64,000 nucleotides of DNA, taken from the NCBI GenBank assembly GCA_031291645.1, contig JARLIQ010000036.1, positions 1 to 64,000 on the forward strand, in the 5' to 3' direction. The translations under genes were made by a program, and so were the position numbers. Positions 20,610-22,697 of this stretch are shown here, in pieces. The notes below the pieces were generated by a model that was given only the letters and a program-made list of their open reading frames with translations, was not told the origin of the DNA and ran no database searches. This stretch comes from Caulobacteraceae bacterium. Its GTDB lineage: Bacteria; Pseudomonadota; Alphaproteobacteria; Caulobacterales; Caulobacteraceae. Numbering within the stretch: the first letter of the stretch is position 1; each line of letters opens with the position of its first letter.

Positions 20610-20638
20610 TTGCGGACGGGGCCCGGCGCGCCTACATT
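20610..20638 (+). promoter_or_regulatory. Housekeeping-type promoter for the 22-codon ORF
   Basis: TTGCGG (20610-20615) and TACATT (20633-20638) are 17 bases apart, and the -10 sits in the context CCTACATT, close to the GCTANAWC form described for Caulobacter housekeeping promoters. Predicted start of transcription is about 20645, which leaves a leader of about 30 bases before the ribosome-binding site of the small ORF. Confidence 0.5.
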
Positions 20639-20675
20639 GCGAGTCCCTGTTCAACAGCTGAAAGGAGGTGGTCCA

Positions 20676-20744
20676 GTGTCTCATTGTCTCCAACCGCGGT
20701 CGCAAAGCGTGACCTGGAGCCTCAAGACCGAGGTTCGCGCCTGA
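20676..20744 (+). CDS. 22-codon ORF with extended Shine-Dalgarno match, not recognised
   Basis: A GTG-started ORF of 22 codons beginning MSHCLQPRSQ and ending SLKTEVRA. I do not recognise it. It is preceded by GAAAGGAGGTGGTCC (20660-20674), which matches the complement of the 16S rRNA 3' end at 14 of 15 positions with the one difference still able to pair G-U; the GGAGG is 7 bases before the GTG. A promoter lies upstream at 20610-20638 and a terminator hairpin downstream at 20818-20850, so it has its own transcript of about 200 nt. The peptide has no membrane segment and carries Cys, Trp and several basic residues. It could be a real small protein, or the RNA could act through its ribosome-binding site. 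Confidence 0.55.
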   Translation: MSHCLQPRSQSVTWSLKTEVRA

Positions 20745-20817
20745 CAGCGCTCTAAGCCTGATAGGCAAGGTCTCGCGATGGGCTGGGGAAACCCGGCCGG
20801 CCGCGGTCCGACGATGG

Positions 20818-20850
20818 AGGGGCGGTTCCAGAGATGGGGCCGCCCCTTTT
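20818..20850 (+). terminator. Intrinsic terminator after the 22-codon ORF
   Basis: AGGGGCGG (20818-20825) pairs with CCGCCCCT (20840-20847), followed by TTT. A second small stem (GGGCTGGG-GAAA-CCCGGCC, about 20780-20797) lies just upstream. The T-run is only on the plus-strand side, so it terminates the small-ORF transcript and not the DUF3574 gene. Confidence 0.6.
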
Positions 20851-21539: not shown

Positions 21540-22697
21540 CTAGATGTCGCGGCCGGCGAGGCCTTCGAGGAAGAAGTAGACGGCGCTCGCCACGCACAGG
21601 ATGCCGATGAAGCCCACCAGCACCACCCCGACGCCAAGCGGCGCGCCGGCGCCCGGCGGCTTGGCGCGGAAGGCCCAGACGATGGCCCCGACGAACACCG
21701 CAAGCCCCGCCCCGCCAAGCAGGGCCAGCGGCCAGACGCCGCCCAGCCACCGCTTCGGCGCCGGCTTGGGCTCGGGTTTGCCGAAGATGACGCGGCGCAG
21801 GGTTTCGGGATCGGTGGCGGCCTGCGCCGAGGGCTCGGCGGCGAAGGGCGCAGGCTCGTGCGGCGCCTCGGCGACCAGCGCGCCAAGGGTCGGGAACGGT
21901 TCGGGTTCCGGTCCGAATTCCAGTCCTGATTCCGGCCCCGATCCCGCCCCTGGTTCCGGCCCTGGCGGGACGCTTGGCGCGGCCTCGCCGAGCGCGGCCG
22001 GTTCGGGCTCGCGCGGCGCCTCCTCCGCCTCGGGCAAAAGCGCCTTGAGCCGCGCGGCGAGGTTGGCGGCGGCGCGCTGGCTGGGCGACGACGCCTCGTC
22101 CCCATCGGCCGGAAGGGGCGCCGCCAGCGGCCCTTCCAACGGCAGGGTCAGTTCCGCGGCGGGTTCGAGAGGCGCGCCGATGTCGAGGCCGAAGTCGGCC
22201 TTGGGCTCGACCACAGAGGACGGCGCGGGCACGAATCCGCCCTGCGGAGTCAGGAACAGCGCCTTCTCGGCCGCTCGGCGGCGCACCAGGGCGTCGACCA
22301 CGATCCGCTCGCCGCCGAAATCGGCCTTGCGCCACATCTCGAGCGTGAAGGCCGCCTCCAGCACCGCGCCCTCGTTGATCCGCCGCAGGACCGCCGAATG
22401 GCGGAAGTTCTCGATGCCGATGTTGAAGACGAACGAGGCCAGGGCGTCGAACTGGTTCTGGCTCAGGGGCGTGAAGACCGCCGCGTCGATGGCCGCGGCG
22501 ACCGCGTCCAGGTCGTAGATCAGCAGCGCCTCGGCGTCGTCCGGCGACACCGAAGCCCCCTCGCGCGCGCTGCGGGTATGGCCATGGCCGATCGTCCAGC
22601 GCCCGTCCGGAAGCTGGGCCGCGTCGCGGCGATAGCCCTCGAAGCGCTTGATCAGGTCGATGGCGACCCGGGAGGCGTGGTGACGCGGCGTGTCCAC
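21540..22697 (-). CDS. GH24 lysozyme-like protein with C-terminal membrane anchor
   Basis: A 385-aa protein whose first 150 residues are a phage-type lysozyme (GH24) domain: LIKRFEGYRRDAAQLPDG, then WTIGHGHT, then QFDALASFVFNIG. Glu20 and Thr35 of the usual E-D-T set are present, but the Asp position nine residues after Glu is Leu29, with Asp31 nearby. Residues 150-310 are Ala/Pro/Glu-rich and probably disordered. The C-terminus holds two hydrophobic segments (WPLALLGGAGLAVFVGAIVW and VGVVLVGFIGILCVASAVYF). No phage genes are next to it, so it is a domesticated or chromosomal wall enzyme rather than a prophage endolysin. Orientation in the membrane is not clear. Confidence 0.83.
   Translation of the reverse strand: MDTPRHHASRVAIDLIKRFEGYRRDAAQLPDGRWTIGHGHTRSAREGASVSPDDAEALLIYDLDAVAAAIDAAVFTPLSQNQFDALASFVFNIGIENFRHSAVLRRINEGAVLEAAFTLEMWRKADFGGERIVVDALVRRRAAEKALFLTPQGGFVPAPSSVVEPKADFGLDIGAPLEPAAELTLPLEGPLAAPLPADGDEASSPSQRAAANLAARLKALLPEAEEAPREPEPAALGEAAPSVPPGPEPGAGSGPESGLEFGPEPEPFPTLGALVAEAPHEPAPFAAEPSAQAATDPETLRRVIFGKPEPKPAPKRWLGGVWPLALLGGAGLAVFVGAIVWAFRAKPPGAGAPLGVGVVLVGFIGILCVASAVYFFLEGLAGRDI

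Follow-up and report, generated by a model that had tools for sequence, protein, structure and literature searches.

The STAB-SD of Bacillus thuringiensis cry3A is a strong Shine-Dalgarno (SD) sequence near the 5′ end that binds the 30S subunit (PMC4113751), and in this respect it resembles the RNA described here, a member of the CC2171 family. The cry3A element lies in a long mRNA and acts without translation initiation, whereas the CC2171 RNA is small and ends in a terminator, with a start codon at normal spacing and a conserved short ORF. Dual-function sRNAs such as rnTrpL/peTrpL of Sinorhizobium meliloti are comparable in that rnTrpL, too, is a small RNA of an alphaproteobacterium and its translated ORF is very short (PMC10117765). 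It differs in that it attenuates a downstream gene and its peptide is functional, whereas neither a conserved downstream gene nor a constraint on the peptide sequence was detected for CC2171. Extended SD sites in Staphylococcus aureus likewise form SD:aSD helices beyond the canonical length (PMC13009471), but the gain there is two base pairs, in mRNAs of the ordinary kind, compared with 14–15 pairs in a dedicated short RNA. In Caulobacter, 75% of coding sequences have no SD (PMC4117421), and a class-wide small RNA with a 14–15-nt SD therefore begs an explanation. The same ribosome profiling study describes two previously predicted ncRNAs that are in fact translated, and the CC2171 RNA is a good candidate for being one of them. 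Among the open-access papers searched, two mention CC2171, both as table entries (PMC11701678, PMC5596092), and none describes its 16S complementarity, its length-conserved ORF, or its spread across the class.

The stretch of Caulobacteraceae DNA that was analyzed (64,000 nt, referred to as the window) contains a complete small transcription unit at 20645–20850(+), with −35 and −10 elements, an extended SD, a 22-codon GTG ORF, and a terminator (Table 1). The lined-up order of these elements reported in the first-pass annotation was borne out by the coordinates on the sequence, as was its placement of the unit between ppiB (PF00160) and a DUF3574 gene (PF12098), both of which lie on the minus strand. 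The same annotation called the unit unrecognized and undescribed, a label that has to be withdrawn because the RNA matches Rfam family RF01867 (CC2171), with a score above the gathering score and over positions 1–159 of the 159 in the covariance model; for the ORF itself, though, no annotation came to light. The genome has one copy of RF01867, which is catalogued as a Caulobacter sRNA of unknown function. None of the RF01867 features tested at the locus failed, and the helix linking the 5′ region with the terminator base (P1) is present, as indicated by its pair probability of 0.9 and by covariation. Judged from sequence, the locus is best explained as encoding an RNA of ~205 nt from the CC2171 family that stands alone, is structured, and is translated.

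Table 1. Features of the CC2171 unit and their positions in the window.
Feature	Position	Strand	Basis
Predicted promoter, TTGCGG-17-TACATT	20610–20638	+	Sequence; position of the −10 peak in homologues; start expected near 20645
Short 5′ leader with CAACA, conserved just 5′ of the SD	20645–20659	+	207 distinct upstream regions
Extended SD, GAAAGGAGGTGGTCCA (GAAAGGAGGTGGTCC = 20660–20674)	20660–20675	+	Complementarity to the 16S 3′ end of at least 15 nt, one G·U
22-codon ORF, GTG 20676–20678, TGA 20742–20744 (MSHCLQPRSQSVTWSLKTEVRA)	20676–20744	+	Sequence; comparative tests
Helix P1, 5′ arm, CAUUGUC, ORF nt 7–13	20682–20688	+	Pair probability; covariation
Helix P2, 5′ arm, ACCGCGGUC, family-level	20693–20701	+	Minimum-free-energy fold; pairs counted on alignment A1
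Helix P2, 3′ arm	20799–20807	+	Fold; alignment A1
Helix P1, 3′ arm, GACGAUG, immediately 5′ of the terminator	20810–20816	+	Fold; probability; covariation
Intrinsic terminator, GC-rich 14-bp stem, 4-nt loop, T-rich tail (TTTT)	20817–20850	+	Sequence; fold
RF01867 (CC2171), full match	20652–20846	+	106 bits, gathering score 75, E 3.5e-22

A scan of the window for consensus sigma-70 promoters called no promoter. Among 207 distinct upstream regions of homologues, the best −10 element ends 17–22 nt before the SD in most, with a peak at 18–22 nt, a T-rich −35 element is located at about −50 to −47, and the TACATT of the window sits at the position of the −10 peak. The leader is conserved in the same set, with A at −7/−6, C at −5, and A at −4/−3 relative to the SD each found in 70–88% of the regions. 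The −10 peak and the conserved CAACA before the SD therefore place the SD ~15 nt from the predicted 5′ end. A conserved CAACAAC-like element between the predicted transcription start and the SD (window 20652–20659; −8 to −2 from the SD in homologues) looks like a pair of A-R-N triplets from Hfq-binding motifs. At the other end of the unit, the terminator was missed by the scanner because of the limits it sets on loop and stem; a terminator was detected in 225 of 238 distinct loci. No co-directional downstream neighbor conserved across orders was seen, and the most frequent downstream neighbor among family members lies on the other strand. A leader of a downstream gene, such as an attenuator leader, was ruled out, as the downstream gene in the window is convergent and no conserved co-directional gene of the kind an attenuator would have was seen. 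Elsewhere in the window, 21540–22697(−) encodes an N-terminal phage-lysozyme domain (PF00959) followed by a long low-complexity tail and a possible C-terminal membrane segment.

The assembly to which the window belongs does not contain a 16S 3′ end, and the 16S tail was therefore taken from a relative (L272; ...CUGGAUCACCUCCUUUCU). Against this tail, GAAAGGAGGTGGTCC forms 14 Watson-Crick pairs and one G·U pair over 15 nt. The 15-base anti-16S match proposed in the first-pass annotation is thus of exceptional strength, as claimed, but is not paired by Watson-Crick pairs throughout. The duplex predicted to form with this tail, at −34.4 kcal/mol, is 8.7 kcal/mol stronger than that of the next-best site in the 64 kb (−25.7 kcal/mol), and the 14-mer GAAAGGAGGTGRTC has a single exact occurrence in the 4.4-Mb assembly. 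An A-to-G change in the SD of many relatives retains a G·U pair with 16S. In the fold of the isolated RNA the SD is only partly unpaired. An antisense piece of an rRNA operon was rejected as the source of the complementarity, given that the match does not extend beyond the 16S 3′ tail and that a conserved ORF and a terminator come after it, between two protein genes. The short distance of ~15 nt between the strong SD and the predicted 5′ end would also suit an RNA stabilizer comparable to the STAB-SD, in which a 30S subunit held by the SD blocks 5′ decay and makes the RNA very stable, and the short ORF only lets ribosomes leave. The cry3A element works in this manner, through 30S binding against RNase J1 and with no initiation (PMC4113751), whereas the start of CC2171 at a fixed spacing and its conserved frame and ORF length argue for initiation, making a role limited to stabilization quite improbable. 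The SD could alternatively be a sponge for sRNAs bearing CCUCC. The Caulobacter sRNAs SisA-D, for example, have an anti-SD-signature motif (PMC12559287), and GAAAGGAGGUGRUC would pair with motifs of this kind. A sponge appears very improbable, as the complementarity extends past CCUCC over the whole 16S 3′ end (GAAA...GAUCC) in species of several orders and both start codon and ORF are retained.

A search for the SD-start signature GAAAGGAGGTGRTCNNNTGTC found it in 74 of the 385 alphaproteobacterial genomes sampled and in 64 of 119 genomes of the family (Caulobacteraceae; 54%), nearly always once per genome, and the reversed-pattern control was found in 0 genomes. A looser pattern, which requires nothing after the start codon, matched in 75 of 372 class genomes; the extra places found with it are all ORFs of 18–57 codons and none is an ordinary gene. 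The signature occurs in about 20% of the sampled alphaproteobacterial genomes, and in many genomes of the class the signature search detected no copy. Matches of a shorter pattern across the phylum fall mostly in Alphaproteobacteria, and the orders represented among the named loci are Sphingomonadales, Rhizobiales (Hyphomicrobiales), Caulobacterales, and Rhodospirillales. This class-wide recurrence with no hits for the reversed pattern, together with the duplex energy and the uniqueness in the assembly, rules out a chance SD. The lack of conservation in relatives against which the first-pass annotation had cautioned was not encountered, both the frame and the ribosome-binding stretch being kept. 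A phage origin was rejected, because the matches in phages were limited to chance hits of 26 nt in two Vibrio phages. Among plasmid records there were two alphaproteobacterial hits, both partial, with no gene listed under either in a gene table that is incomplete.

An ORF of 17–28 codons is found in frame 0 in 143 of 145 loci (98.6%), compared with 12–21% for other frames or shuffles. As a 29-base pattern extending to ORF nucleotide 13 had supplied most of these loci, the test was repeated on 72 groups that were drawn from all searches and whose ORF bodies have no recognizable sequence in common. An ORF of 17–30 codons is present in 58 of these 72 groups versus 24% in shuffles (P about 1e-23), and the third-position G+C content exceeds that of the first and second positions by 0.11 (P 3.5e-8), an excess that would be 0 if it came from stop avoidance alone. 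The conserved length and the third-position bias therefore indicate that the ORF is very probably translated. Start codons are GTG in 155 cases, ATG in 66, and TTG in 4. The CV is 0.13 for the interval from start to stop and 0.42 for that from stop to terminator; on the comparative evidence, the length of the ORF is set from its start and not from the 3′ end. Codon 2 (ORF nucleotides 4–6) is TCT in 205 of 225 loci, some of which were found by patterns that fix TGTC, even though most of the genomes are GC-rich. This codon may reflect a nucleotide-level constraint beside the start codon.

The codon-level conservation that had been suggested as a check was found in part, in that frame and length are kept and an excess of synonymous changes is absent. 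Comparison of 58 independent close-homologue pairs gave 131, 153, and 127 substitutions beyond codon 5 at codon positions 1, 2, and 3, respectively, with a synonymous fraction of 0.30, compared with 0.274 ± 0.026 for the null of random placement. Synonymous changes are thus not enriched in these pairs, and no purifying selection on amino acids was detected in them. Indels of 1–2 nt within the ORF outnumber those in multiples of three; pairwise alignment of divergent pairs can create some of these 1–2-nt indels. The ORF has a slightly higher identity (0.86) than the linker (0.81), and this and the excess of GC3 over GC1 and GC2 leave room for a constraint on the composition of the peptide. The divergent-group ORFs (L022, L026, L215–L218, L221, L227, L232, and L234) often end in EQP or QPP a few codons before the stop, which may reflect a constraint on the RNA or on the peptide. 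A small-protein gene, in which the extended SD drives high expression of a peptide of 20–26 residues whose action depends on its composition or length and not on its exact sequence, would account for the conservation of frame, start, and stop, for the third-position G+C bias, and for the recurrence of a pattern MSHC...PRS...TW...EVR-A in Caulobacterales and Rhizobiales. We consider it unlikely, since the open frame of conserved length is accompanied by an even codon-position spectrum, by no synonymous excess that would mark purifying selection on the residues, and by tolerance of 1–2-nt indels, and since the apparent N-terminal motif MSHC overlaps the P1 arm and changes along with P1. The peptide matched no Pfam or NCBIfam family, which also rules out a known peptide family. 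At first pass it had been proposed that either the peptide is made in high amount or the RNA itself modulates initiation. The former is weakened by the lack of measurable purifying selection and by the 1–2-nt indels tolerated in the ORF, and an RNA that acts through initiation fits better. In the loci compared, frame and length (about 20–26 codons) are conserved and amino acid identity is not; in our reading, selection would act on frame and length and leave the sequence free.

The RNA of the window has a predicted folding energy of −108.5 kcal/mol (z −4.7 versus dinucleotide shuffles), and the pair probability of helix P1 is about 0.9. In A1, a sequence-based alignment comprising 46 homologues from the family, P1 and P2 together have a covariation score of 0.177, compared with 0.125 ± 0.009 for shuffled and at most 0.093 for slid controls; the pair 33–205 in this alignment varies between U-G, U-A, A-U, and C-G. 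The arms of P1 co-vary across the class, as seen in CAUAGUU/GACUAUG, CAAUGUC/GACAUUG, CACCAAA/UUUGGUG, and AUGAGAUU/AAUCUCAU, with further compensated arms including CAUGAAU/AUUCAUG, CAUGGUU/GACCAUG, CGAGAUC/GAUCUCG, and others. In a fixed register, a solid P1 is found in 52% of 82 non-canonical loci versus 16% when the arms are taken from other loci, and some divergent loci of this set yielded no P1. Taken across the alignments, the predicted helix is maintained by compensatory changes. P1 joins ORF nucleotides 7–13 to the base of the terminator, and the ORF is therefore positioned inside a closed loop, with P1 in the path of the initiating 30S subunit. The stop codon precedes the 3′ arm of P1 in most loci, and the distance from stop to terminator has a median of 44 nt and a minimum of 14 nt. 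A stand-alone, strongly structured, and terminator-ended RNA from a family catalogued as an sRNA might instead act in trans by base pairing, with an exposed segment that pairs with target mRNAs and with the SD and ORF as accessories that, for example, protect the RNA. This is unlikely, as the anti-16S stretch and the start are the most conserved part, no conserved unpaired segment outside them was seen in alignment A1, and the conservation of the frame would be left unexplained. A non-coding sRNA would also have no translated ORF, whereas the frame length and GC3 bias point to translation.

We favor, with a probability of roughly 0.45, a translated structured RNA that acts by engaging ribosomes and has no defined peptide, that is, a 30S-docking and start-gated RNA serving as a trap or gauge for 30S subunits; it is the very tight docking ahead of a gated start that leads us to prefer a trap or gauge. 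The 30S subunit would dock on the SD, and opening of P1 would be required for initiation. Approximately 22 codons would then be read and the ribosome released within the P1 loop, which would keep ribosomes on the RNA and away from the terminator, and P1 would re-form once the ORF is idle or ribosomes are absent. In this manner the RNA would sequester free 30S subunits or signal their level while shielding its own 5′ end, its work being ribosome engagement rather than the making of a defined peptide, and 30S titration, self-stabilization, and loop exposure are candidate downstream effects. We hold the anatomical part of this model with much greater certainty than the regulatory part. So strong an SD might do no more than support high translation, and a trap needs an abundance of the RNA comparable to that of free 30S subunits; both points speak against a 30S trap, as do the SD that is only partly unpaired in the isolated fold, the divergent loci that yielded no P1, the many genomes in which no copy was detected, and the room left for a constraint on peptide composition. 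Only tentatively do we extend the model to a class-wide regulatory RNA that may have as its function to be bound and translated. Such an RNA would capture 30S subunits through its near-complete 16S complement and pass them through an ORF selected for length but not for sequence, with P1 as the gate, and would in effect gauge or buffer the pool of free 30S subunits in bacteria most of whose genes do without an SD. If the ORF is selected for its translation and not for its peptide, such RNAs would be a third category beside sRNAs and small-protein mRNAs, and conserved short ORFs would no longer be evidence for functional peptides.

The extended SD also precedes ORFs of 54–57 codons with signal-peptide-like N termini (VSKSMKTLAVASVLMFGSAISGAALAEC...) at L158:1500, L236, L237, L300, and L301. 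These ORFs may constitute a distinct family of small secreted proteins that shares the initiation signal. In one genome (G012) two copies are present (L016 and L225), one with the ORF start CATTGTC and the other with the P1 arms CATGGTT/GACCATG, which suggests paralogues with an independently evolving helix.
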